A stretch of DNA of 34,210 bases, from contig JACDGP010000054.1 in the NCBI GenBank assembly GCA_013821605.1, positions 1 to 34,210 on the forward strand, read 5' to 3'. The notes beneath the pieces were generated by a model. It was not told where the DNA came from. It saw only the letters and a list, made by a program, of their open reading frames with translations, and made no database searches. The position numbers were made by a program, and so were the translations under genes. This stretch comes from Herpetosiphonaceae bacterium (lineage in GTDB: Bacteria > Chloroflexota > Chloroflexia > Chloroflexales > Kallotenuaceae). Shown here piece by piece: positions 5,911 to 23,880 of this stretch (the stretch's first letter is position 1; every line of letters starts with the position of its first letter).

Positions 5911-6968
5911 TCAGTGGGTGGGCATCAGTGTGGGAGCAGGGAGGCCGGCCCACTGGGCAGCGACCGCCTGAGCAATGAAGGGCAGCACCTCCCGCTGCTG
6001 TTGCCGACAGGTCGTCGTTACCGTCAACAGTCGTTCGACAAAACGGCTTCCTTCACTGCTCTCTGTGCCGTAACAGCCTTTGCGCCATAGCACGGCTGGA
6101 CGTAACGCTCGTTCCGCTGCGTTGTTGGTCGGCTCGACCCCCTCAACCGTCACAAATGTCCACAACGCTGGCCACACCAGCAGCAACTCGCGACAGAAGC
6201 CACGCGCTTTATTCCACGCCAACGCCCCTGCGGGAGCACCCGCGCGCCCCCGCTCCACCAAGTCGCGCAACTCGGCCTGCACCGCTGTCATCTCCTGCTG
6301 CAGCCCGACGCGATCCAGCTCGCCACTCCGGAAGCGGTGCCACGTCTCAAACAGCTTGCCAATCTGGACCATCGCCGCCTCACCCCAGACCCCCACCGGC
6401 CCATCCCGCTCACGGAAGAACTGCCAGTCTCGTTTGAGATGCGCCCAGCACAACTGGCGCTGCGCCACGGGCAGATGAGCATACGCGCTGTAGCGGTCCG
6501 AGCCCACGATACCCCAAAGCAGGCACCCAGCAAGCTCGTGAACGCATCACGCGAGCGACGCCCAATCAGGAAGAGCGTGGCGACCAGCGTGACCGCGACC
6601 CACAGATAGCGCTGCTGGTGGCACTCCTGCCACGGAGTTTCATCGGCATTGGCCACCGCTTGTGCCTGGACAGCGCTCTGGACCTCGCGGTAGACCGGCG
6701 CCAAGGCCGTACTAACCGTCTGATACAGCGCTGGCACACTGCCCAGGCTCAGCGGAATGCCCCACAGGTCGTCGAGCAACAGCACTATCTCGCGGGCACT
6801 CACCCGATAGCGGCCATGCAGCAGGGCGACCAGCGCCACCACCTATGGCCCAAATCCGCCCGGAGGCAGGTCCGGCGGGCGCTCAGCGCGCACGGCGTGG
6901 TGACACTGTGGACAATTGACGACAGGGAACTGGTGCTCCTCCTCGATCGACCTGTACTCTAATGACAT
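5911..6968 (-). pseudogene. Decayed IS66-family transposase
   Basis: The reading frames together encode most of an IS66-type transposase. They include a zinc-binding segment (NCPQCHHAV), the VALVALLHGRYRVSAREIVLLLDDLWGIP domain, the first catalytic Asp in VANADETPW, the second in VGSDRYSAY with the QLCWAHLKRDWQ helix, and the Glu region GVEPTNNAAERALRP near the end. It is broken in two places. An in-frame TAG at 6843-6845 interrupts the N-terminal part. A one-base loss in a G run near 6515-6520 shifts the frame between the first and second catalytic Asp. The far N-terminus of a full-length transposase is also missing. No IS66 accessory genes or clear terminal inverted repeats are seen. Its upstream edge overlaps the 30-bp direct repeat at 6940-6969. 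Confidence 0.85.
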
Positions 6969-9705: not shown

Positions 9706-9714
9706 TGCTATAAT
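9706..9714 (+). promoter_or_regulatory. Extended -10 promoter of the iol operon
   Basis: TGCTATAAT at 9706-9714 is a perfect extended -10 element (TGn plus TATAAT). No good -35 is present, which extended -10 promoters tolerate. Transcription would start near 9721, so the ATG at 9713 lies inside the promoter and cannot be the iolC start. This supports the start at 9737. Confidence 0.55.
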
Positions 9715-9736
9715 GGTTGACAGCGATAGGGAAAGC

Positions 9737-10774
9737 ATGAGTAAGATGGCGACTGAAAAAGCCTATGACATCATCACGATGGGGCGTTCCTCGATTGACC
9801 TGTACTCTAATGACATTGGGGCACCGTTCGAGGATATTACCAGCTTCGCAGCCTATGTTGGTGGCTGCCCGCTTAATATCAGCGTCGGCATGCAAAGGTT
9901 GGGCAGCCGGGCGGCGCTGCTGACAGCGGTAGGCGACGATCAGGTTGGCAGCTTTATCCTCCACTTTTTACAGCGGGAAGGTGTCGAGACGCGTTTCAGC
10001 GTCCACAAGCCGGGCAAGCGCTCTAGTGCCGTGCTGATGAGTATCCAGCCGCCGGATCGCTTCCCGCTGACTTTTTATCGTGACAACTGCGCCGATATCG
10101 AGTTGACGATCGATGATGTGCTCCAGACGCCGATTGCCGAGAGCCGCGTCTTGCTTATATCTGGGACGGGGCTGAGCAAAGAGCCGAGCCGGAGTGCTAC
10201 GTTGTTTGCGGCCGAAGTCGCACAGCGGGCCGGCACGACCGTCGCGCTCGATATCGACTTCCGGCCAGACCAGTGGCATGATGCGCGGGCGTTTGGCGTT
10301 ACCATCCGTGCGGCGCTGCGTCTGGTGGATATTGTGTTGGGCACCGAGGATGAAATTAATGCTGCTATGCTGACTGACCCAAGCCAGGTTAGTCTGACGC
10401 ATTCGCAGCTTTCGGATGCGCGCGTTAGTGGTGATATCGAGGCTGCGATCCAGGCCGTGCTCGCGCTCGGACCCAAGGTGCTGCTGCATAAACGTGGCGC
10501 AGCGGGTTGCAGGGTGCATCTGGTTACTCCTGGCAGTCCGGCACACCAGATCCATGCGCCGGGGTTTCCGGTGGAAGTCTCCAATATTCTGGGGGCGGGC
10601 GACGCTTTTGCCGCAGGCGCGTTGCACGGCTTTATCCAGGGGTGGGACTGGTACAAGGCGGCACGGCTGGCGAATGCGTGTGGTGCAATCGTGGTAACGA
10701 AGCCGGGCTGTGCCAATTTTACGCCGACGTATGATGAGGTGATGGCATTTGTCGCGGAGCATGGTGGCTTCTAG
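9737..10774 (+). CDS. iolC: 5-dehydro-2-deoxygluconokinase
   Basis: This PfkB-family sugar kinase of 345 residues phosphorylates 2-deoxy-5-keto-D-gluconate in myo-inositol catabolism. Early features are GRSSIDLYSNDIGAPF and the sugar-binding YVGGCPLNISVGMQRLG. The C-terminal PfkB signature ILGAGDAFAAGALHG contains the catalytic base Asp. The start at 9737 has AGGGA just upstream and lies downstream of the extended -10 box. It is followed by iolD after 117 bp that contain a hairpin repeat. Codons 18-27 are duplicated at 6940-6969. The iolD-iolE-iolG neighbours make the assignment firm; a 2-keto-3-deoxygluconate kinase is the main alternative from sequence alone. Confidence 0.85.
   Translation: MSKMATEKAYDIITMGRSSIDLYSNDIGAPFEDITSFAAYVGGCPLNISVGMQRLGSRAALLTAVGDDQVGSFILHFLQREGVETRFSVHKPGKRSSAVLMSIQPPDRFPLTFYRDNCADIELTIDDVLQTPIAESRVLLISGTGLSKEPSRSATLFAAEVAQRAGTTVALDIDFRPDQWHDARAFGVTIRAALRLVDIVLGTEDEINAAMLTDPSQVSLTHSQLSDARVSGDIEAAIQAVLALGPKVLLHKRGAAGCRVHLVTPGSPAHQIHAPGFPVEVSNILGAGDAFAAGALHGFIQGWDWYKAARLANACGAIVVTKPGCANFTPTYDEVMAFVAEHGGF
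9788..9817 (+). repeat. 30-bp direct repeat, right copy (inside iolC)
   Basis: Matches 6940-6969 at 29 of 30 bases. This copy is an integral part of iolC, in a conserved stretch of the protein, so it is presumably the original. Confidence 0.85.
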
Positions 10775-10809
10775 GAGGAGTGGCAGTGCAGGACGGCCCT
10801 CACCCCTAA

Positions 10810-10836
10810 CCCCTCTCCCAGTGCGCGGGAGAGGGG
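10810..10836. repeat. GC-rich hairpin repeat, copy 2
   Basis: The same 10-bp stem as at window positions 6-32, with loop AGTGCGC. It lies between iolC and iolD and is preceded by CACCCCTAAC. In the transcript it would form a very stable hairpin without a U-tract, so it may affect mRNA stability or relative expression of iolC and iolD rather than terminate. Confidence 0.75.
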
Positions 10837-10891
10837 AAGGAAGCAGTTCACTAAAACATGACGGGCACCCCAATGGGTGCGAGGAGTGACG

Positions 10892-12814
10892 ATGAGTGAG
10901 CAGACACGGCGTGTGACGATGGCGCAGGCGCTGGTTGCGTTTCTCCAAAAGCAGTATGTTGGGCGGGATGGCGTGGAGCAAGCGTTCTTCGCGGGGTGTT
11001 TCGGCATTTTCGGCCATGGCAACGTGGGCGGCATCGGTCAGGCGTTGCAGCAGATGCCCGAGTTGCGCTATTACCAGGCGCGCAATGAGCAGGCGATGGT
11101 GCATGCGGCGGTGGCGTATGCGAAGGTGAAGAACCGGCTGCAAACGCTGGTGTGTACGTCGTCGATCGGGCCGGGCGCCACGAACATGATTACGGGTGCC
11201 GCCACCGCTACGATCAACCGGCTGCCGGTGCTGTTGCTGCCGGGCGATATTTTTGCGCGTCGCAATGTCGCGCCGGTGCTGCAACAGCTTGAGTCGAGCC
11301 AGAGCCAGGATTTTTCGGTCAATGATTGTTTCAAGCCAGTGAGTCGCTACTGGGATCGCATCTCGCGCCCCGAGCAATTACTGACGGCGCTGCCGGAGGC
11401 ACTGCGGGTGCTGACCAGTCCGGCGGAAACGGGCGCGGTGACGCTTGGCTTGCCGCAGGACGTGCAGACGGAGGCGTATGCGTATCCCGAGGCCTTTTTC
11501 CATAAGCGGGTGTGGCATGTGCCACGCAACCGGCCAGATCGGGGTGCGCTTGAACGGGCAGCCAGCTGGATCCGGCAGAGTCGGCGACCGATGATCGTGG
11601 CGGGTGGTGGGGTGATCTATGCCGAGGCGACCGAGGCTTTGCGGCGGTTCGTTGAACAAACGGGCATCCCGGTGGGCGAGACGATGGCCGGTAAAGGGAG
11701 CCTGTGCTACGACCATCCGCTGAATCTCGGTGCGATCGGGGCGACGGGTACCTTCGCGGCTAGTCGGATCGCTAAAGATGCCGATCTGGTAATCGGGATT
11801 GGGACGCGCTATAGCGACTTCACCACCGCCTCAAAAACGGCGTTTCAACAGCCCGGCGTGCGTTTTATTAATCTCAATGTGACCGAGTTCGATGCCGGTA
11901 AACACCACGCCCTGCCGCTGGTTGGAGATGCACAGGTGACGCTCAGCGAATTGGCGCAGTTGCTTGAAGGCTATCAGGTGGCGGGCGAGTACCGGTCGAT
12001 GGTCGAGCGGCTGCATGCGGAGTGGGATACCGAGGTTGAGCGCATCTACGGTCTGCGTCACACGCCGCTGCCGAGCCAGGGAGAGTTGATCGGGGCGGTG
12101 AATGAGTTGAGCGATCCGCAGGCGATCATGGTTTGTGCGGCGGGTAGCTTGCCGGGGGATCTGCATAAGGTGTGGCGGGCACGGCACCCGAAAAACTATC
12201 ACCTGGAATACGGCTACTCGTGTATGGGCTATGAGATCGCGGGTGGGCTGGGCATCAAGATGGCCGCGCCGGAACGCGACGTGTATGTGATGGTCGGCGA
12301 TGGCTCATACCTGATGCTGAGCGGTGAGATCGTGACCTCGATCCAAGAAGGCTATAAACTGATCATTGTGCTGCTGGACAACGGCGGGTATAAGAGTATC
12401 GGGGCGCTCAGCCGGTCGCTCGGTCAAGAGGGCTTTGGCACACGCTATGTGTATTCGCAAGATGGGGTGCTGCCGAGCGATGCGGCGGGAACAGCGGTCA
12501 AGGCCTTGCCGGTCGATTTGGCGGCGAATGCCCGCAGTCTGGGTGCCGCGGTGCTCGAATGCACCGACTATCAGGAGTTTGTTGACGCGCTCGCGGCGGC
12601 TAAGCAGACGGATCACACCACGGTGATCGCTATCCATAATGATCGCTGGCAAGATATACCGGGCTACGAGAGTTGGTGGGACGTGCCCGTGGCAGAAGTG
12701 AGCGAGGTGCCGACGGTGCAGGCCGCGCGCAAGGCATGGGAAGCGATGCGGGCCAACGAGCGAACGTTTTTGCCCAGCGACGACGAGTTCAATACCGAGG
12801 GGCCAGCACGATGA
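10892..12814 (+). CDS. iolD: 3D-(3,5/4)-trihydroxycyclohexane-1,2-dione hydrolase
   Basis: This thiamine-diphosphate enzyme of 640 residues opens the ring of the inosose-derived dione to 5-deoxy-glucuronate in inositol catabolism. The N-terminal Pyr domain shows [13 protein letters not shown] and the activating Glu in [14 protein letters not shown]. The middle domain has [12 protein letters not shown]. The C-terminal ThDP-binding motif is [15 protein letters not shown], ending [11 protein letters not shown]. The start at 10892 has GAGGAG seven bases upstream. The stop codon overlaps the iolE start (ATGA). Length and motifs are typical for IolD; other ThDP enzymes such as acetolactate synthase are shorter and lack the IolD-specific C-terminus. 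Confidence 0.92.
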
Positions 12815-13737
12815 CGGAGATCCAGATCGGCAATGCACCGTGTTCGTGGGGCACGCTTGAGTTCGAAGGGCTGGAGGGGACGCGTATCGAGCCGGCCCAG
12901 ATGCTGGATGAACTACGCGATACCGGCTATGCCGGCACAGAGTTGGGCGATTGGGGCTTTCTGCCGACGGAGCCGGCCGGCTTACGAGCAGAACTTAGCG
13001 GGCGCCAGCTCGCGCTGACGGGCGCATTCGTGCCGGTCGATCTCCGAAACCCGGCGGCACATGCGGCGGGTGAGGCCAGCGCACTCAAGGTAGCCCGCTT
13101 GCTGGCAAGCAGTGCAACGGGGGAGCGCCCGTTTCTGGTGCTGGCCGACGCGAACGGCACGGACCCGATCCGGACACAGCAAGCCGGTCGCATTACACCG
13201 GCCATGGGACTCAGTTCGGCGGAGTGGGCGATCTTTGTCAGCGGTGCCGAGCGCATTGCACGAGGCGTACGCGATGCGACCGGTTTGCGCACAGTGTTTC
13301 ACCATCACTGTGCGGGCTGCATCGAAACGCCGGATGAAATCGCGCGCTTCTTGGAACGCACCGATCCTGCGCTCGTCGGGCTCGTCTTCGATACAGGTCA
13401 CTATCTGTATGGGACGGGGCGTAACGATGGAACGGCGGTGCTGGATGGCCTGCGGCGCTTCGGTGATCGTATCTGGTATATGCATTTCAAGGATTGTGCG
13501 CCACAGGTCGCCGAACAAGCGCGAAGCGAAGGTTGGAATTATTTCACGGCGGTCCAGAACGGCCTGTTTTGCGAACTGGGCCAGGGAGCCGTTGATTTTC
13601 CGGCGGTGGTTGGTTGGCTGCGCGAACGTGATTACCACGGATGGATCACGGTGGAACAAGATGTTCTGCCGGGCATGGGTGCACCACGTGCCAGTGCTGA
13701 ACGGAATCGTGCTTATCTGACCGCCATTGGTTTGTAG
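12811..13737 (+). CDS. iolE: Inosose dehydratase
   Basis: A TIM-barrel sugar isomerase-like protein of 308 residues, assigned as 2-keto-myo-inositol dehydratase. It begins [17 protein letters not shown], as IolE proteins do. It has the metal-site patterns [45 protein letters not shown] and, near the end, WITVEQD. The start is the ATG overlapping the iolD stop by 4 bp, which gives strong translational coupling. Between iolD and iolG it would supply the substrate of IolD. It is slightly longer than the usual 298 or so residues and otherwise normal. Confidence 0.88.
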
Positions 13738-13755
13738 CACGCTAGGAGCAGGTGT

Positions 13756-14778
13756 ATGCCAGCCGAATCGTTGCAGATTGGTCTGATTGGTGCGGGGAGG
13801 ATTGGGCAGGTTCACGCCGCAAGCCTGGCCAGCCGTATTCCGGCGGCACGCATGCTGATGGTGGCCGATGTGGTCGAGGATGCGGCGCAAGCGTGCGCAC
13901 GGCAGTATGGCATTCCGCAGGCGGTGCGTGATTATCATGCGCTGCTGGCAAATCCGCAGATCGAAGCCGTGGTGATTTGCAGCGCGACGGATACACACGC
14001 CCAGATTATTGCCGAAGCGGCGCAGGCCGGTAAGCATATTTTTTGTGAAAAGCCGATCGCGCTGTCACTAGGAGCGATTGACGCGGCGCTTCAGGCGGTC
14101 GAGCAGGCCGGTGTTAAGCTGCAGGTTGGCTTTAACCGGCGCTTCGATGCCAACTTTCGCCGGGTGCGGGACGCCGTGGTGCGCGGCGAGATCGGCCAGC
14201 CCGAGCTGCTACATATTATCAGCCGCGATCCGGCGCCGCCGCCACTGGCTTATATCAAGGCCTCCGGCGGCATGTTTTTGGACATGACGATTCACGACTT
14301 CGATATGGCGCGCTTCTTGATCGGCAGTGAGGTGGAGGAGGTGTATGTAGCGGCGGGCGTGATAGTCGATCCGGCGATCGGTGAGGCGGGGGATGTCGAC
14401 ACGGCGGTCATTCTGCTTAAGTTTGCGAACGGCACAATTGGAACCATCGAGAACAGCCGGCGGGCGGTGTATGGCTATGATCAGCGGGTCGAAATCTTGG
14501 GTAGTGCGGGCGCGATCCGAATCGATAATAACCATCCCAATACGGCAGTGATCAGCACCGCCGACAGCGTTCATCATGATCTGCCGCTTAACTTTTTCAT
14601 GACGCGCTATACCGAGAGTTATGTGGCCGAGTTGGCCGCATTCGTGGAGGCGGTGTTGCATGATACTGCCGTGCTGGTCAGTGGACAGGATGCACGCGTA
14701 CCGGTCGTGATGGGTTTGGCGGCACGTATGTCGTATGTGGAACACCGGCCGGTCCGGGTACATGATATTCCCTCATGA
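13756..14778 (+). CDS. iolG: Inositol 2-dehydrogenase
   Basis: A Gfo/Idh/MocA-family NAD(P)-dependent oxidoreductase of 340 residues. The nucleotide site is IGLIGAGRIGQVHA (about residues 8-21). The catalytic Lys is in CEKP (Lys99) and the substrate-site pair DxxxH is in LDMTIHDFDMARF (Asp176, His180). It would oxidise myo-inositol to scyllo-inosose, the first step of the pathway. AGGAG lies seven bases before the ATG. The family has many other sugar dehydrogenases, but the iolCDE context makes the inositol assignment likely. It is the last gene of the operon, and a new promoter begins three bases after its stop. Confidence 0.88.
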   Translation: MPAESLQIGLIGAGRIGQVHAASLASRIPAARMLMVADVVEDAAQACARQYGIPQAVRDYHALLANPQIEAVVICSATDTHAQIIAEAAQAGKHIFCEKPIALSLGAIDAALQAVEQAGVKLQVGFNRRFDANFRRVRDAVVRGEIGQPELLHIISRDPAPPPLAYIKASGGMFLDMTIHDFDMARFLIGSEVEEVYVAAGVIVDPAIGEAGDVDTAVILLKFANGTIGTIENSRRAVYGYDQRVEILGSAGAIRIDNNHPNTAVISTADSVHHDLPLNFFMTRYTESYVAELAAFVEAVLHDTAVLVSGQDARVPVVMGLAARMSYVEHRPVRVHDIPS

Positions 14779-14979: not shown

Positions 14980-16095
14980 ATGGTTGCTCCGGTACGTTCG
15001 ACAGCAGCTGTTCTGCTTGTGTTATTGGCCCTGCTCCTCGCGGCCTGTGGCGCGCCACAGGCCGCCCAGCAGTCGCAACCGGCTGTCCAAACTGCCGCGC
15101 AGTCTCCCACGGAGGGAGGAACGGTGGCAGCAGCACAAACGGGGGGAGCAGCACAGGTGAAAGCGGGTGCAGTGACCGTCAAGGTCGCGGTATTGCCCAT
15201 TTTCTCTTATGCGCCATTCTTTATTGCTCAAGAGCAAGGGTTCTTCACCGAGCAGGGGTTGAAGGTCCAACTGGTCATGCTGGCGGGACAGGCTGACATC
15301 CTGCCGGCGTTGGTGAGCGGCCAGGTGGATGTTGGCGCAGGGCTGATTAGTGCAGGAATCCTCACGACCATTGCGAAAGACAGTAGGTTTCAGATCGTGG
15401 CCGACAAGGGCTATGCTGCAGCAAATGGTTGCGATTCGTATGCTTTGGTGGTCCGGCGCAGTCTGGTGCAAGCCGGTGTCCTCCAGCATACAGAACAGTT
15501 ACGAGGCGGGAGTATTTCATTTCCGCGTACGTCATGGCTGAACTACTATGCCGAGAAGACCTTGAACAAGGCGGGCCTGAAGATCGAAGATTTACGGCAG
15601 AATGAGTTGACCGCAGCGGTCCAGCTTGGGGCGCTGAATACGGGCCAGATTGACCTCGTCGGTAATAATGAGCCGTGGATCACACGCTTTACCCAGGCCG
15701 GCCACTCGACCATTTTTACGCCGGCCCATGAGTTGCTGCCGGATTCGCAGTCCTCGGTCACCCTCTACGGTCCGGCCCTGGTCGGCAAGAACGCCGAGGT
15801 CGGCAAGCGTTTTATGATTGCTTACCTCAAGGCGGTCCGACAGTATAACGAGGGCAGGACGGAGCGGAATACTGCGATCATGTCGAAGGCGGTGAAGCTC
15901 GATCCACCGTTGTTGAAGCAGATGTGTTGGCAACCGCTACGCCTTGATGGTCGCATCAACGTCCAGAGTATCCTCGACTTCCAGAATTGGGCGCTTGGGA
16001 AAAAGTTTATGAGACAGGCCGTGACGCCGGAACAGTTCTGGAATTCGGCGTTTGTGGACTATGCCAACAAGCAGTTGGGGGCAGTGGGCAAGTGA
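14980..16095 (+). CDS. ABC transporter substrate-binding lipoprotein (TauA/SsuA/NMT1-like)
   Basis: A 371-residue lipoprotein with signal peptide and lipobox LLAAC (Cys23), a Gln/Ala-rich linker, then a type II periplasmic-binding fold of the NMT1/TauA/SsuA group. Typical patterns are VAVLPIFSYAPFFIAQEQGFFTEQGL, then LVSGQVDVGAGLISAGIL and IDLVGNNEPWITRF. Members bind sulfonates, nitrate-like ions, pyrimidine precursors or aromatic acids; the ligand cannot be read here. It should sit outside the cytoplasmic membrane and feed the ATPase/permease pair encoded downstream. Its stop overlaps the GTG start of the A-PCP gene by 4 bp. A diverged copy of its last 20 or so codons occurs at 18120-18190, directly before the ATPase gene. 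Confidence 0.85.
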   Translation: MVAPVRSTAAVLLVLLALLLAACGAPQAAQQSQPAVQTAAQSPTEGGTVAAAQTGGAAQVKAGAVTVKVAVLPIFSYAPFFIAQEQGFFTEQGLKVQLVMLAGQADILPALVSGQVDVGAGLISAGILTTIAKDSRFQIVADKGYAAANGCDSYALVVRRSLVQAGVLQHTEQLRGGSISFPRTSWLNYYAEKTLNKAGLKIEDLRQNELTAAVQLGALNTGQIDLVGNNEPWITRFTQAGHSTIFTPAHELLPDSQSSVTLYGPALVGKNAEVGKRFMIAYLKAVRQYNEGRTERNTAIMSKAVKLDPPLLKQMCWQPLRLDGRINVQSILDFQNWALGKKFMRQAVTPEQFWNSAFVDYANKQLGAVGK

Positions 16096-17963
16096 ACGGG
16101 CCCGACCTTTTTATTCCGTGGACGCCGGACGATATCGAACAGCTTGTTCCGGACCGGTTTGAACAACAGGTTCGAAGCTATGGTCAGCGCTTGGCAGTCA
16201 AGAGCTGGGACGCGGAGCTTAGCTATGATGCGTTGAATCGCGCTGCCAATCGCTTGGCTCACGCGCTGCTTGAACGAGGCAGCGACGAAACGCCCATAGC
16301 GCTCTTGTTTGAGCAGGGTGCCGCGATGATCATCGCCCTGCTCGGTGCTATGAAAGCCATTCGGATCTACGTTCCACTGGCGACGACCGACCCGCAGAGC
16401 CGGCTCAAAGATATCTTGGCGGACGCGGGAGCTCGTCTGATCATTACCAATAACAACAACCTACTCCTTGCGGAGGCGGTGGCGCAAGGTCAGCTCCTTG
16501 TGCTCAACCTTGATGACCTCCCAGCCACGCTGTCCGAAGAAAATCCGGTGCGCCCAGCCCGACCGGTGGACAATGCGATCATAAACATCATGTACACCTC
16601 GGGCTCGACGGGCGTGCCAAAAGGAGTCATGCTGACACATCGCCATATGCTCCACGATGTGGGGATGACAACGAGTTTTGGGCGTCTTACCGCACAGGAT
16701 CGGGTACTGCTGTTGGCTTCCTATACTGTTTCGGTCTCGACAACATCCATCGGTCATGCACTGCTGAATGGCGGTACAGTCCTGCCGTTTGACGTCAAGC
16801 GTGAGGGTCCGGCCGCATTGGCGGCGTGGATGAAGCAAGAAAAGGCCACCGTCTACCACTCGGTGCCGACTGTTTTCCGTCATCTGATCGGCTCCTTGGG
16901 CGAAGATGATACCTTTCCTGCGATGCGACTGCTCCAACTGGCGGGAGAGCCGATTCTTAAGCGCGACGTCGAGTTATTCCGGCGTCATTTCCCAGCACAC
17001 TGCTTGCTACGGGTGGGACTGGGCTCGACAGAGGCGGGGCTGCCGACCTTTCTCAAGATCACCCCCGAGATGGAACTGCCGGAAACAACCGTGCCCTTGG
17101 GCCGGGCGAGTCCGGGACGAGAGATCCTGATCCTGGATGAAAACGGTGCACCGGTGCCTGAAGGTGAGACCGGCGAAATTGCGGTCAAGTCGCGCTATCT
17201 CGCGCTCGGTTATTGGAACAAGCCGGAGCAAACGGAGGCAGTTTTTCGCCCGGCACCGGAGGGTGATGGCCGGCGGATTTATTTGACCGGTGACCTTGGT
17301 CGCTGGGACCCAGGTGGGAACCTTGAACACCTTGGCCGCAAAGATCTCCAGGTGAAGATCCGTGGCCATCGGGTCGAAATACCGGAGATCGAAACGCGGC
17401 TGCTGGGCATTGATGGTATCCGCGAGGCTGCCGTCGTGGCGAAAAGGGACCAGCGTGGCGACAATCGTTTGGTGGCTTATCTCGTCCCAACGGTACAGCC
17501 GGCACCCGCACCGGCGACGGTACGTCAGGCCCTCCATGCAGTACTGCCGGAGTACATGATCCCGGCCGCTTTCGTTTTTATGCAGCACCTACCGCAGGGA
17601 ACATTCGGGAAAATTAATCGTCTGGCGTTGCCAACACCCGATTGGGAAGCGGTCGCAGCCGAAAGTGTCTATGCACCACCGAGTACGCCAGTCGAGGAGC
17701 TGCTGGCACAGCTTTGGTCAGATGTTCTCGGTGTCCACCGTGTAAGTATTCATGCTCATTTCTTTGATCTCGGGGGTGACTCGTTACGAGCGGCACAAAT
17801 TATTGGACGAGTCGGGACCATCTACGGGCTCGACTTACCCATGACGATACTTTTTGAGGCACCGACCGTCGCAGAGCTAGCGCTAGTGATCGTGCAGCGG
17901 CTGGCCGAGAACAGCGAAGATGACGATATCGCTCGCCTGGTAACCGAACTCGAGGGAAGCTGA
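16092..17963 (+). CDS. Stand-alone NRPS A-PCP didomain (acid-activating and carrier protein)
   Basis: The 623-residue protein has an adenylation domain followed by a peptidyl carrier domain. Adenylation motifs are MYTSGSTGVPKGVM (A3, near residue 168), GLGSTEAG (A5), YLTGDLGRW (A7), KIRGHRVEIPEIE (A8) and GKINR with the catalytic Lys (A10). The carrier site is FFDLGGDSLRAAQ, with Ser564 for phosphopantetheine. It has no condensation or thioesterase domain. By hand alignment to GrsA the specificity residues read S-V-T-H-Q-A-G-L-P-K. The usual first-position Asp is Ser214, so it probably does not activate an ordinary alpha-amino acid. The start is GTG overlapping the binding-protein stop; a longer frame would lie within that gene. 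It likely loads the acyl group passed in trans to the NRPS at 19798. Confidence 0.85.
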   Translation: MNGPDLFIPWTPDDIEQLVPDRFEQQVRSYGQRLAVKSWDAELSYDALNRAANRLAHALLERGSDETPIALLFEQGAAMIIALLGAMKAIRIYVPLATTDPQSRLKDILADAGARLIITNNNNLLLAEAVAQGQLLVLNLDDLPATLSEENPVRPARPVDNAIINIMYTSGSTGVPKGVMLTHRHMLHDVGMTTSFGRLTAQDRVLLLASYTVSVSTTSIGHALLNGGTVLPFDVKREGPAALAAWMKQEKATVYHSVPTVFRHLIGSLGEDDTFPAMRLLQLAGEPILKRDVELFRRHFPAHCLLRVGLGSTEAGLPTFLKITPEMELPETTVPLGRASPGREILILDENGAPVPEGETGEIAVKSRYLALGYWNKPEQTEAVFRPAPEGDGRRIYLTGDLGRWDPGGNLEHLGRKDLQVKIRGHRVEIPEIETRLLGIDGIREAAVVAKRDQRGDNRLVAYLVPTVQPAPAPATVRQALHAVLPEYMIPAAFVFMQHLPQGTFGKINRLALPTPDWEAVAAESVYAPPSTPVEELLAQLWSDVLGVHRVSIHAHFFDLGGDSLRAAQIIGRVGTIYGLDLPMTILFEAPTVAELALVIVQRLAENSEDDDIARLVTELEGS

Positions 17964-18055: not shown

Positions 18056-18190
18056 ATGATTGTTAAGATACGTACGCAAGTACCTCTGTTGGATATGCCA
18101 ACATTGAAGCAAATGGTGCTGGCAGAAAAGTTCTGTAATTCGAGCTTTGTGGATGACGCCAATACCCAGTTGGGAACTGCGAGCAAGTGA
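18056..18190 (+). pseudogene. Remnant of the 3' end of a substrate-binding protein gene
   Basis: This short frame would give 44 residues ending EKFCNSSFVDDANTQLGTASK. The end of the binding protein at 14980-16095 is EQFWNSAFVDYANKQLGAVGK. Over the last roughly 62 bases the DNA matches at about three quarters of positions by my hand count, including the terminal GCAAGTGA. An LKQM tetrapeptide upstream also matches, suggesting an internal deletion. The fragment cannot form a binding protein. The stop overlaps the ATPase start (GTGA), just as the intact gene overlaps the A-PCP start. It may still be translated (AAGG precedes the ATG), possibly helping coupling to the ATPase. Confidence 0.65.
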
Positions 18191-18981
18191 CAGCGTCGTC
18201 GCGGCCCACCCTCATCTGCCAGGGTATTAGTAAGCTATATCCGACCCGCAGTGGTGGTATTGCGGCCTTGACCAATGTTAGCTTTACGGTCCGGCCTGAA
18301 GAGTTTGTTTGTATCGTTGGCCCGAGCGGTTGCGGCAAATCGACCTTGCTCAAACTGCTGGCGGGCTTGATCGCACCGACAACCGGACAACTGATCTTCA
18401 GCGAGCCGGCGGTTCCCGACCAACCGCGCAACGCCCTAGTTTTCCAGGAGCATGGTTTGTTTCCGTGGCTGACGGTGCTAGATAACGTCGCCTTTGGCTT
18501 GGAGACGCGCGGTGTGCGACGGCAGGAGCGGCAGGAACGTGCACGGGCGTTTTTGGCACAGGTAGGGCTATCTGCCTTTGCCGATAACTATCCGCATGAG
18601 CTTTCGGTTGGGATGCGACAGCGGGTCGGCATTGCGCGCGCTTTTCTTTCCAACCCGCAACTCCTGCTGATGGACGAGCCATTCAGTGCACTTGATGCAC
18701 AAAGCAAGCTTGTGCTTCAGGAGGAACTCTTGCGAATCTGGAAGGATCATCGCACAATGGTGGTTTATGTGACGCACGATATCGAGGAAGCGGTGCTGCT
18801 GGGCGATCGTGTGCTGGTGATGAGTGGCCATCCCGGTCGCATTCAGGAAGAGATCCAAATTCCATTGGGGCGACCGCGCGATTTGCGTGACCGCGAACAA
18901 CAAGATGTCAGGAAGATAGCATGGCACATCTGGAAAGCAATCGAAGCGGAAGTGCGCGAAGATTTACGGGTCGCTTCCTGA
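18187..18981 (+). CDS. ABC transporter ATP-binding protein (TauB/SsuB-like)
   Basis: The 264-residue ATPase has Walker A GPSGCGKST, Q-loop VFQEHGLFPW, signature LSVGMRQRV (Val in place of the first Gly of LSGG, a variant I recall in this subfamily), Walker B LLLMDEP, D-loop SALDA and switch His in VTHDIEEA. This places it with the nitrate/sulfonate/taurine import ATPases. It powers import with the permease at 18921 and the lipoprotein at 14980. The start is GTG overlapping the stop of the binding-protein remnant, which implies that the ATPase was originally coupled to a binding-protein gene at this junction. Its 3' end overlaps the permease gene by 61 bp. Confidence 0.88.
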   Translation: MTASSRPTLICQGISKLYPTRSGGIAALTNVSFTVRPEEFVCIVGPSGCGKSTLLKLLAGLIAPTTGQLIFSEPAVPDQPRNALVFQEHGLFPWLTVLDNVAFGLETRGVRRQERQERARAFLAQVGLSAFADNYPHELSVGMRQRVGIARAFLSNPQLLLMDEPFSALDAQSKLVLQEELLRIWKDHRTMVVYVTHDIEEAVLLGDRVLVMSGHPGRIQEEIQIPLGRPRDLRDREQQDVRKIAWHIWKAIEAEVREDLRVAS

Positions 18982-19757
18982 CGGAGGACTCCCCGTTGCA
19001 CTTGCCCGGCTCGGACGCCTGGCTGGTGGGCATCATTGTTGTCGTGCTATTGGGGGCTTGGGAGGGGGCAGCCCGTGCCGGCCTTATCTCGGCTTTGTTT
19101 TTTCCTCCGCCGTCGGTGATTGCTGCGAGTGCAACAGCATTGGTTCGCGATGGCACCCTGCCGATGAATATGGCTGTCACCCTTGAGCGCCTGCTCTTCG
19201 GCATGCTGTTGGGTGGAATTCCCGGCTTGTTGCTTGGCCAACTTTTAGGCCGGTCACCCCGGCTGCGAGCGGTGATCAATCCGTTCTTCGCCGCAGCCCA
19301 TCCGATTCCCAAAATAGCGATCTTGCCGCTGATCATGATCATCTTTGGCATTGGTGAGGCGCCGAAGGTGATTGTCGCTGCCACGGGGGCCTTTTTCCCC
19401 ATGCTGATTAACACCATGACCGGCGTGCAGCAAATTAATCCGATTCATTTCGAGGTCGCGCAAAACTATGGTGCGAGCAGGTGGAAGGTCTTTACGCGGG
19501 TTATCTTGCCCGGTAGTCTGCCGTTCATGCTGGCGGGTTTGTTGCTGGCGCTTAACGTCACGCTGTTGCTTACGATTGCGGTGGAAATGGTTAGCTCGCA
19601 GACCGGTCTAGGTGCCATGATCTGGCTCGCCTGGGAAACCATGCATGTTGAGGATCTGTATTCCGCGCTGGCCGTCATTACGTTGTTTGGTATTGGCTTC
19701 AATTTCGCCCTCCAGCACTTAAGGAAACGCTTGGTGCCGTGGGAGGTGGCTACGTAG
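18921..19757 (+). CDS. ABC transporter permease (TauC/SsuC-like)
   Basis: A 278-residue BPD-type inner-membrane permease with about six hydrophobic segments. The cytoplasmic EAA loop appears as EVAQNYGASRWKVFTRVILPGSLPFMLAG, and ALFFPPPSVI near the start is typical of SsuC/TauC members. The ATG at 18921 has AGGAAG six bases upstream, so the 61-bp overlap with the ATPase gene seems genuine. It is followed after 40 bp by the NRPS gene, which places synthesis and transport genes in one transcript. It belongs to importers; no exporter-type domain is seen. Confidence 0.87.
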   Translation: MAHLESNRSGSARRFTGRFLTEDSPLHLPGSDAWLVGIIVVVLLGAWEGAARAGLISALFFPPPSVIAASATALVRDGTLPMNMAVTLERLLFGMLLGGIPGLLLGQLLGRSPRLRAVINPFFAAAHPIPKIAILPLIMIIFGIGEAPKVIVAATGAFFPMLINTMTGVQQINPIHFEVAQNYGASRWKVFTRVILPGSLPFMLAGLLLALNVTLLLTIAVEMVSSQTGLGAMIWLAWETMHVEDLYSALAVITLFGIGFNFALQHLRKRLVPWEVAT

Positions 19758-19797: not shown

Positions 19798-22700
19798 ATG
19801 AGCGAGCTTAGCCAACGGATCGCCAATCTGTCGCCGGAAAAACGGGCAGTGCTTGAGCAGGCGCTTGTCAAGCGGGCCAGCGTGTCCGCAAAGAGCACCG
19901 GCATCGGTCATCGCGCCTCATTGGGACCTGCACCGTTGTCCTTCGGCCAGCAGCGCCTGTGGTTTCTTGATCAGTTAGACCCTGATAGCCATCTGTATAC
20001 GATCGCGTCGTGCTGGCAGATGAATGGTCAGCTCGACGTGGACGCCTTGAGGCGAGCATTCAACATGATCGTTGCGCGCCATGAAGTGCTCCGTACCACG
20101 TTTCAGTCCGTTGAGGGCATCCCAGTGCAGGTCGTTGCACCTAGCAGGACGGTTGAACTGCCGATTGTAGATTTAAGCATGCTGGCAGCGGATGAGTGCG
20201 AGGCCGAGGTCAAGCGCATCCTTAACGAGGCAAGCCGACACCACTTCCACTTAACATACGAACCCTCGCTGGACGTCCAGGTGCTACGGCTTGAAGCGGA
20301 GCAGCATATTCTCGTATCCACATGGCACCATATTGCGTCCGATGCCTGGTCCGCAGCCACCTACGAGCGCGAACTATTCGCACTATACGCTGCGTACGTT
20401 GCGGGCAAGCCGTCGCCATTACCGGAGCTACCGATTCAGTATGCCGATTTCGCGGTGTGGCAGCGGGAGCGGCTGCAAGGTCCGTTGCTCGAAGCACAGC
20501 TTGCTTATTGGCGTGAGCAACTAGCCGATAGTCCATTGGCTCTCGCTCTACCGACCGACCGACCACGGCCACGTCTGCAAAGCTATGAAGGAGCAGAGCA
20601 GGTCGTCCATCTGCCACAGGATTTGAGCGAAGCACTCAACCACTTCAGCCGCCGCGAAGGGGTGACCCTGTTTATGGTGCTGCTGGCAGCGCTTAAGGTG
20701 CTCCTGTTGCGCTCTAGTGGGCAAACTGATCTGGTCGTCGGTACGCCGATTGCCGGGCGGCAAGTGGCAGAAACAGAAGGGCTGATCGGTCTGTTTCTCA
20801 ATACCCTTGTACTGCGCACGCATCTCGATGGTAATCCAACGTTCCGAGAGTTGCTGGCACGGGTCCGTACGACGGCGCTCGGTGCGTATGCCCATCAAGA
20901 TGTGCCTTTCGAAGGGCTGGTCGAAGAGTTGCGTGTCGAACGGGACGTTAGCCGAACGCCACTGTTTCAAGTCATGTTTAACCTGCGTAGCCCACCGCGT
21001 CCACCACTCGAGCTTGCCGGCCTGGCACTCAAGCGAATTGAGCTTGAGAGCAAGGTTGCCCAGTATGATCTTAATCTGGCGGTGATAGAGCAAACCGACG
21101 GGCTGCGGCTGCAACTCGAATATAGCGTTGATCTCTTTGACCGGGTCACGGTTGTGCGTATGCTGGAGCACTTTCAGAGCTTACTGCGAGCTATCGTTGC
21201 CGACCCGCAGCAGCGGATCGAGGCGCTCCCACTATTAAGTGAGCCGGAGTGCCGCCAACTTCTGGTCGAGTGGAATGACACTGCCTGTACCTATGCGCAA
21301 CAAACCACGATCCAGCGTGCATTCGAGGAACAGGTGGCGCGCACGCCTGACGCTGTTGCTGTCGTCTATGAGAACAGCCACTTGTGCTATGGTGAGCTCA
21401 ACCAGCGGGCCAACCAGCTAGCGCATTATTTGCAGCGTATGGGAGTGGGTCCTGATGTGCCGGTGGGTGTTTGTGTCGAACGTTCCCCAGAGATGGTCGT
21501 GGGTTTGCTGGCCATCTTAAAGGCCGGGGGAGCTTATCTGCCTCTCGATCCGACCTACCCTCCTGAACGGCTGGCTTTTATGCTGGCGGATGCGCAGCCT
21601 ACGGTACTGCTTGCTCAGCAGTCGCTGGTGAAGCAGTTGCCGCCTCACGAAGCTACGGTGGTGTGCCTGGATGGTGACTGGTCAGCCCTAGCTCAAGAAC
21701 GTGATGCTAACCTCAATAGTGGCGGTGATGGTGAGCAGTTAGCGTACATAATCTATACCTCCGGCTCGACCGGCCAACCCAAGGGCGTGTTAGGGACGCA
21801 CCGGGGGGCACTTAATCGCTTTAACTGGATGTGGCAGCGTTACCCGTTCGCGGCAGATGACGTGTACTGCCAGAAGACGGCTTTCAGTTTTGTGGACTCG
21901 ATTTGGGAGATTTTCGGCCCCTTGCTGCAAGGGACTCGGATCATCATTATTCCGGATCGGGTAGTCAAGGATCCACAAGAGCTGCTCCGTGTGCTGGCAG
22001 ATCACAACGTCACACGTATCGTGCTGGTGCCGTCGCTCTTACGCATGTTGCTGGAGACAAAGGTTGATCTGGGGCAGCAACTGCCCCGGTTGAAATACTG
22101 GTTCAGTAGTGGGGAAGCGTTGCCCTGGGATCTCGCCCAACGCTTGCTGGCAAGCATGCCACATGGTGTCCTGCTTAATCTGTATGGTTCATCTGAGGTA
22201 GCGGCCGACGTGACGTACTACGAGGTGAGCCGTGAGCAACGCGGCGGCAGGGTGCCAGTTGGCCGACCAATTGCCAACACCCAGATCTATCTGCTGGACC
22301 GGCAGATGCAGCCGGTGCCAATTGGAGTGACCGGCGAGGTGCATGTCGGCGGAGCCGGAGTAGCACGTGGCTATCTAAAGCGCGCGGAGTTAAGCGCTGC
22401 CAAGTTCGTACCTGATCCATTCAGCGACGAGCCAGGTGCAAGGCTGTATAAAACGGGGGATCTTGCGCGCTACTTGCCGGACGGAATGATCGAGTACGTG
22501 GGTCGCAATGATGATCAGATCAAGATCCGCGGTTTCCGTGTGGAGTTGGGCGAGATCGAGGCGTCCCTCGCTCAGCATCCCGGTGTGCGCCAGGCAGTCG
22601 TCGTGGCAGGCGAGTTTAGGATGAGCGACGTACGTCTCGTAGCATACGTGATAGCGCGTGAAATTCCCGGTCCCAGCGTACATGAACTGCGCGCGTTTCT

Positions 22701-23880
22701 CCATTCCCACTTGCCGGCGTATATGGTTCCCGCCGACTTTATGGTTGTTGATGCCTTGCCGTTGACGTCTAGTGGTAAAGTGGACCGGCGAGCCCTGCCA
22801 GCAGCCAGCACGGTACAACCCACAGTCGATGCAACCTCCGCTGCACCCCAGGATGCGTTGGAGCTTCAGTTGACACTGTTGTGGGAGCAGTTTCTCGGAC
22901 GACGGCCGATCGGGAGGGAGGATAACTTCTTCGAAATTGGTGGTCATTCGCTGCTGGCGGTGCGCCTCTTTGCTCAAATCGAGGAGCGTCTTGGTCGGCG
23001 CCTGCCATTAGCTATGCTGTTTGAGGCACCCACCATTGCCGGCCTCGCCCATTTGCTCAGGCAAGATGGTTGGTCGCCAACTAGGTCCTTACTGGTAGCG
23101 ATTCAGCCAGGCGGTACGAAGCCACCGTTGTTTTGCGTGACGCCGGCCGGCATGACTGCACTCTACTTTGTGGATCTTGCTCGTCATCTCGGACCAGACC
23201 AACCCCTTTATGGTTTCCAGGCGGTCGGTCTGGAACATGACGAGCCGCCACATACCTGTATTGAGCAGATGGCAGCACATTACATTGCCCAAATGCGCAG
23301 GCTGCAGCCCACAGGACCATATCTGCTTGGGGGTAACTGCCTCGGCGGTGACATCGCATTCGAGATGAGTAGGCAGCTGGAGCAAAGCGGCCAAGAGGTG
23401 GCACTGCTCGCCCTTATGGATGCTGAGCCGCCCTTGGCCGCCCATATTATTGAAGTGCTCAAACGCGTGCATTATATCTACCAGGTTGGCCTGCTGCCGG
23501 TTGTTGTCAAGCGGATGGTCAAAGCCATGGTGTCACGCGGTCGTTTGCGACCACGGCTACGACAGTTTGAGGATGTGGGAGCAAACGATAGCGCACGTTT
23601 GCAATCACGCCGCATCCGAAGCGTGTTTGATGCCACCATCATGGCTTTCCGGCACTACCGCGGACGGCCATACGGGGGACGCATCACGCTGTTGTACAGC
23701 AGTCAGGCATATCAGTTCTACGGCCTTTTTTGGACGCGGTGGTGGGAACAATGGGCAGGTGCAGGAGTCGAGTGCTATGTGATTCCGGCGAAACACCTCA
23801 CCATGCTGCGGGAACCTAGCGCTCAACGTGTCGCAGCACAGCTTACAGCCTGTCTTGATGCGGTGACGGTGCGTAGCTAA
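19798..23880 (+). CDS. Terminal NRPS module C-A-PCP-TE, predicted beta-alanine specificity
   Basis: A 1360-residue synthetase. The condensation domain shows LSFGQQRLWFLDQL (about residue 46), RHEVLRTTF, HHIASDAW (His177, His178, Asp182; Ala replaces the usual Gly) and IGLFLNTLVLRT. The adenylation domain shows YTSGSTGQPKG (about 655), YKTGDLARY and SGKVDRRAL. Specificity residues by hand alignment to GrsA are Val699, Asp700, Trp703, Val742, Phe769, Ser771, Leu795, Ala803, Asp804 and Lys994, that is VDWVFSLADK, close to the beta-alanine code. The carrier site is IGGHSLLAV (Ser1051). The C-terminal type I thioesterase has GGNCLGG, with Cys1181 in place of Ser, and probable partners Asp1208 and His1333. 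With one module and an N-terminal C domain it needs a donor in trans, most simply the A-PCP protein at 16092. The first 40 residues may be a docking segment. Confidence 0.88.
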   Translation: MSELSQRIANLSPEKRAVLEQALVKRASVSAKSTGIGHRASLGPAPLSFGQQRLWFLDQLDPDSHLYTIASCWQMNGQLDVDALRRAFNMIVARHEVLRTTFQSVEGIPVQVVAPSRTVELPIVDLSMLAADECEAEVKRILNEASRHHFHLTYEPSLDVQVLRLEAEQHILVSTWHHIASDAWSAATYERELFALYAAYVAGKPSPLPELPIQYADFAVWQRERLQGPLLEAQLAYWREQLADSPLALALPTDRPRPRLQSYEGAEQVVHLPQDLSEALNHFSRREGVTLFMVLLAALKVLLLRSSGQTDLVVGTPIAGRQVAETEGLIGLFLNTLVLRTHLDGNPTFRELLARVRTTALGAYAHQDVPFEGLVEELRVERDVSRTPLFQVMFNLRSPPRPPLELAGLALKRIELESKVAQYDLNLAVIEQTDGLRLQLEYSVDLFDRVTVVRMLEHFQSLLRAIVADPQQRIEALPLLSEPECRQLLVEWNDTACTYAQQTTIQRAFEEQVARTPDAVAVVYENSHLCYGELNQRANQLAHYLQRMGVGPDVPVGVCVERSPEMVVGLLAILKAGGAYLPLDPTYPPERLAFMLADAQPTVLLAQQSLVKQLPPHEATVVCLDGDWSALAQERDANLNSGGDGEQLAYIIYTSGSTGQPKGVLGTHRGALNRFNWMWQRYPFAADDVYCQKTAFSFVDSIWEIFGPLLQGTRIIIIPDRVVKDPQELLRVLADHNVTRIVLVPSLLRMLLETKVDLGQQLPRLKYWFSSGEALPWDLAQRLLASMPHGVLLNLYGSSEVAADVTYYEVSREQRGGRVPVGRPIANTQIYLLDRQMQPVPIGVTGEVHVGGAGVARGYLKRAELSAAKFVPDPFSDEPGARLYKTGDLARYLPDGMIEYVGRNDDQIKIRGFRVELGEIEASLAQHPGVRQAVVVAGEFRMSDVRLVAYVIAREIPGPSVHELRAFLHSHLPAYMVPADFMVVDALPLTSSGKVDRRALPAASTVQPTVDATSAAPQDALELQLTLLWEQFLGRRPIGREDNFFEIGGHSLLAVRLFAQIEERLGRRLPLAMLFEAPTIAGLAHLLRQDGWSPTRSLLVAIQPGGTKPPLFCVTPAGMTALYFVDLARHLGPDQPLYGFQAVGLEHDEPPHTCIEQMAAHYIAQMRRLQPTGPYLLGGNCLGGDIAFEMSRQLEQSGQEVALLALMDAEPPLAAHIIEVLKRVHYIYQVGLLPVVVKRMVKAMVSRGRLRPRLRQFEDVGANDSARLQSRRIRSVFDATIMAFRHYRGRPYGGRITLLYSSQAYQFYGLFWTRWWEQWAGAGVECYVIPAKHLTMLREPSAQRVAAQLTACLDAVTVRS

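Follow-up and report, generated by a model that had tools for sequence, protein, structure and literature searches.

The adenylation domain at positions 21,247–22,803 (residues 484–1002 of its protein) carries the pocket code VDWVFSLADK, and its most likely substrate is beta-alanine, a reading to which we give a probability of about 0.8. The window, i.e., the whole 34,210-nucleotide stretch of the Herpetosiphonaceae contig analyzed here, probably encodes a line in which this domain, belonging to a lineage with Val-Asp at pocket positions 235–236 (VD-type), serves a C-A-PCP-TE module that follows a loader and releases its product through a Cys-type TE; the proposal builds on the observed domain content, code, clade membership and gene order. 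The NRPS module and the operon genes described below lie on the forward strand.

Domain organization and pocket code of the C-A-PCP-TE module

The protein encoded at 19,798–23,880 is a C-A-PCP-TE NRPS module of 1360 aa, as assigned with Pfam and NCBIfam. Pfam places Condensation at residues 45–489, AMP-binding at 509–860 and AMP-binding_C at 919–994, followed by PP-binding at 1025–1087 and Thioesterase at 1109–1338. The NCBIfam model AA-adenyl-dom (TIGR01733) scores 458.6 bits, above its curated cut-off of 317.4, and the core motifs YTSGSTG, YKTGD, GRNDDQIKIRG and GKVDR are all found; by score and motifs alike, the region is an NRPS amino-acid adenylation domain. The termination module is also complete by motifs: condensation motif HHIASD (HHxxxD; regular expression on the translation; residues 177–182, 20,326–20,343), PCP motif GGHSL with the phosphopantetheine Ser (residues 1048–1052, 22,939–22,953) and TE nucleophile motif GNCLGG (23,332–23,349), in which Cys1181 replaces the usual Ser.

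The ten pocket residues had been proposed in a first-pass annotation of 21,892–22,782, and HMM profile alignment, with the columns of GrsA as the coordinate frame, returned the identical code at identical positions. In a residue and codon check the pocket spans 21,892–22,779, with codons starting at 21,892 (V699), 21,895 (D700), 21,904 (W703), 22,021 (V742), 22,102 (F769), 22,108 (S771), 22,180 (L795), 22,204 (A803), 22,207 (D804) and 22,777 (K994). The GrsA sequence was verified against PDB 1amu, and its extracted code was DAWTIAAICK; the stretch from YGxxE to position 331 aligned without gaps (AYGPTETTIC in GrsA, LYGSSEVAAD in the window). As a control, the extractor was run on plasmid pAMDE1 and reproduced the published code table (PMC3777966) for the domains compared, with one residue differing, in domain 115-A1.

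The window domain belongs to a widespread VD-type lineage

Relatives were sought as DNA encoding F-V-D-x-[ILV]-W-E...[AP]-L. The F-V-D-x-[ILV]-W-E pattern occurs in more than 100 adenylation domains from many phyla and in 8 of 400 Chloroflexota genomes, including the window's own; scanning the named genomes gave at least 116 stretches. Codes extracted from the pattern-matching stretches were, among the matches listed, mostly VDW[VI]xSLA[DN]K. In a tree of 163 A domains, one clade with an SH-like support of 100 contains 97 of the 98 VD domains among the matches listed, the window domain included; a second tree placed it within a 30-row set composed entirely of VD domains (95*). Having Val235 and Asp236 and grouping with VD domains in trees of the whole A domain, the window domain belongs to a lineage that is widespread over many phyla, and is not the bearer of a lone code.

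Clustering at 75% identity left 62 non-redundant VD domains among the matches listed. Agreement with the window, leaving aside V, D and W, which the search pattern sets and which are hence uninformative, is found at 278 (V, 43 of 62), 301 (S, 56), 322 (L, 45), 330 (A, 40), 331 (D, 46) and 517 (K, all 62). Position 299 is variable (I 19, V 16, T 15, S 6, F 2, C 2, Y 1, L 1); the window's Phe there, shared by two of the 62, is its sole departure from VDWVISLADK and might make the pocket narrower or shift it. The code matches the window at 9 or 10 positions in 25 of the 62 domains, a figure that carries weight only at the other seven positions because the set was preselected for V-D-x-x-W. The same loci also gave 30 non-VD domains whose codes were complete; the best of these matched the window at 6 of 10 positions, and most at 1 or 2. 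The resemblance of the window code to those of VD-type domains is not due to chance.

The closest VD domains compared, from Ktedonobacteraceae and cyanobacteria (e.g., loci L037, L041, L047, L062 and L067), share 58–62% A-domain identity with the window and have VDWV[IV]SLADK codes, with Ile or Val at 299 in place of Phe. The other architectures compared differ from that of the window: genome G144 has an A-PCP starter, and Gloeocapsopsis a C-A-T protein next to PKS genes.

Evidence for beta-alanine as the substrate

Known beta-alanine modules are JanE (Gynuella) and Krb18 and Krb24 (Kribbella); the published anchor used for comparison here was solely the first A domain of pAMDE1 ORF108, a BlmIV homologue of a bleomycin-type NRPS line. 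A published table lists its code, VDATVSIADK, under beta-alanine because it resembles the bleomycin line (PMC3777966). This code is of the same V-D...S.AD.K type as the window code and identical to it at 6 of 10 positions, sharing V235-D236, S301, A330, D331 and K517, while having Ala at 239, Thr at 278 and Ile at 322. In the second tree this domain groups with the VD lineage, joining a small VD set (95*), yet on a long branch and with at most 35% identity to VD domains; in its own protein it is followed by heterocyclization domains, whereas the window module has a TE. The first-pass annotation had also counted a 9/10 match to VDWVISLADK, taken there as the beta-alanine code. That string exists in genomes, being carried exactly by 7 of the 62 non-redundant VD domains, whereas the published code that could be verified gives the 6/10 above. 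A literature search for VDWVFSLADK and VDWVISLADK, joined or spaced, gave no match, and no beta-alanine domain was identified among the PDB matches listed. VDTVISFGDK of Mycetohabitans rhizoxinica (L163:11938-13482) was rejected as a second anchor: the domain falls outside the VD clade, beside an alpha-amino-acid domain from the same megasynthase, and its code likely reflects local pocket exchange or convergence.

A code-independent line of evidence comes from panD, whose product makes beta-alanine from aspartate. All panD genes and all pattern sites were located in 50 genomes with VD domains, and in three of them panD lies within 6.3 kb of a VD domain, where random placement would give 0.085 such genomes (P about 1e-4). 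The VD gene of Calothrix PCC 7716 has an additional panD immediately after it, on the same strand. Cupriavidus basilensis OR16 likewise has an additional panD, here in a same-strand gene run with the VD gene and followed by a phosphopantetheinyl transferase, and in Bradyrhizobium elkanii panD is the first gene of the neighbouring run, which contains NRPS and exporter genes. A second panD match was present in four genomes of this set, in three of which one copy is at the VD locus. A further 50 genomes, in which proximity was judged contig by contig and so counted less strictly, added Parvularcula, where panD lies about 10 kb from the VD domain, between NRPS and condensation/PKS genes on the same strand. 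Over both sets, about 100 genomes of the lineage besides the window's, panD lies beside an NRPS in only 4, and the VD codes of the relatives with nearby panD are VDWITSLGDK, VDWVSSLADK, VDWVLSCD.K and VDWTVSLAD. Several further panD genes that appeared close to VD domains by coordinates were discarded, as they are on other contigs.

This co-location supports beta-alanine well for the lineage as a whole but is no proof for the window domain, for which it is borrowed from relatives because the window's own cluster has no panD. Beta-alanine being likely for the VD lineage, from panD and the published code, it is by membership likely for the window domain too. The beta-alanine call of the first-pass annotation is thus backed, as a predicted substrate, by family placement, by the pAMDE1 code type and by the panD neighbourhoods of VD-type domains. 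For a poorly studied Chloroflexota lineage this gives an NRPS substrate call that has been checked, together with a rule that has independent support: V-D at 235–236 marks one lineage, and beta-alanine production genes adjoin several of its members. The VD code may therefore be used to predict beta-alanine in many uncharacterized clusters.

Two of the panD-bearing loci are of separate interest. The Parvularcula PKS-NRPS cluster (L202:2-13867) is a candidate for a beta-alanine-containing product. The VD-type A-PCP protein of Calothrix PCC 7716 (L189:7435-10358), which panD directly follows, has about 230 C-terminal residues without assignment and may be an enzyme that conjugates beta-alanine to amines, as Drosophila Ebony does.

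Alternative substrate readings

Within the VD lineage, the domain might prefer another small non-alpha amino acid, namely 3-aminoisobutyrate, 3-aminobutyrate or 4-aminobutyrate. A relaxed or shifted choice among beta-amino acids has a precedent in the kasichelins, where one NRPS line incorporates beta-alanine or beta-aminoisobutyrate (PMC12305651), and the window's Phe sits at 299, the only freely variable pocket position of the clade. However, the remaining pocket positions of the window are those of the clade majority, and Phe299 would be expected to shrink the pocket rather than enlarge it, which leaves this reading a small probability. A very improbable reading takes Val235 as the sign of an ordinary alpha-amino-acid or hydrophobic-acid domain resembling McyG, in which V227 at the equivalent position still permits L-Phe (PMC11253843). 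Against it, Asp236, S301, A330 and D331 make up a pocket that is found across the clade and differs from the alpha-amino-acid codes of the same genomes, and clade members are co-located with panD.

The structurally characterized ligases VinN, IdnL1, CmiS6 and HitB offer a different model of beta-amino-acid recognition, keeping Asp235 and having a beta13-beta14 loop one residue shorter than that of alpha-amino-acid domains (PMC11253843). Enzymes of this kind, such as VinN and HitB, also activate beta-amino acids, which is what they have in common with the reading proposed here, but they are standalone enzymes. As judged on sequence, the window domain has Val at 235 and a beta13-beta14 segment that is not shortened. 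Because of these two features it is not of the VinN kind, an assignment we regard as vanishingly improbable, and its predicted pocket is a separate solution. The statement in the first-pass annotation that Val followed by Asp occurs "as in beta-amino-acid domains" therefore holds for the VD lineage only, and fails for VinN, IdnL1, CmiS6 and HitB.

A proposed two-module assembly line

Upstream of the module, an A-PCP didomain at 16,092–17,963, a probable loading module, has the code SVTHQAGLPK. Because Asp235 is absent, the expected substrate of the didomain is an acid with no alpha-amino group. Almost all of the nearest relatives, which are 39–47% identical, also lack Asp235. In other Chloroflexota, relatives occur as loaders or as A-PCP-TE proteins, and the great diversity of their codes suggests a family for unusual acids. 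The closest relative (47% identity) opens an A-PCP, C-A-T, C-A-T-TE line in genome G237 (contig C7); there too the loader is without Asp235 and leads to a C-A-T-TE protein, whereas that line has one extra module and, within its 10-kb contig, no interleaved importer.

A two-module line of loader, beta-alanine module and TE release, in this presumed order, is the most likely reading of the window, and two observations speak for it: the GTG start of the A-PCP gene shares four bases (GTGA) with the stop of the preceding substrate-binding protein gene, which ties that gene to the loader, and in G237 a loader of the same type stands before C-A-T and C-A-T-TE proteins. In beta-alanine the amino group lies one carbon further from the carboxylate, and in the VD-type pocket Asp236 instead of Asp235 would hold it. 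The VD-type domain would adenylate beta-alanine and load its own PCP, while the A-PCP protein would load a carboxylic acid that has no alpha-amino group. Condensation by the C domain would then link the loader's acyl group to the amine of the beta-alanyl unit, after which the Cys-type TE would release a putative N-acyl-beta-alanine or a cyclized form of it. A co-directional ABC importer may supply one of the building blocks.

Importer genes and host beta-alanine supply

The NRPS genes stand in a row of five co-directional genes, in the order substrate-binding protein, A-PCP, ATPase, permease and C-A-PCP-TE module. The first encodes an NMT1/SsuA-like substrate-binding lipoprotein of an ABC importer (14,980–16,095; Pfam NMT1, 47.7 bits), which scores 64 bits with NCBIfam SsuA_fam, under the cut-off of 163.5. 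The ATPase (18,187–18,981) is TauB/SsuB-like and the permease (18,921–19,757) TauC/SsuC-like by Pfam and NCBIfam. The importer components thus resemble those for taurine and sulfonates, yet score below the curated NCBIfam cut-offs. Between the A-PCP and ATPase genes, a small ORF of 44 aa (18,056–18,190) has GGGGTGAAGG, a good ribosome-binding site, before its ATG, and its end overlaps the ATPase start by four bases (GTGA); it has no Pfam match. Importer genes interleaved with NRPS genes and a loader for a non-amino acid are the unusual features of this locus. Among 40 order-level relatives no close homologue of the substrate-binding protein was found, only matches of 25–29% identity, so the operon is not checkable by conservation. 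Taurine was dismissed as an NRPS substrate, because adenylation domains of NRPSs would not be expected to activate a sulfonic acid.

With respect to host supply, no PF02261 match for panD was found in the window or in the host genome, a draft of 259 contigs and 99.6% completeness in which the gene may have been missed. PLP decarboxylases gave a sub-threshold match only. panD is present in three relatives of the same family (G002, G004 and G005) and absent from two other families of the order. Import is a possible source of beta-alanine for this host. A more elaborate scheme, in which a panD-less host imports beta-alanine or the partner acid through the TauABC/NMT1-like importer and feeds it directly to the two-module NRPS to make a small N-acyl-beta-alanine, possibly a pantothenate-like one, seems to us quite doubtful. 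That the NRPS makes pantothenate itself is unlikely, as an ordinary panC is present in the genome.

Two further features of the window lie upstream. The myo-inositol catabolism genes iolC, iolD, iolE and iolG occupy 9,713–14,778, directly before the NRPS operon, and a remnant of an IS66 transposase is found at 5,911–6,507.
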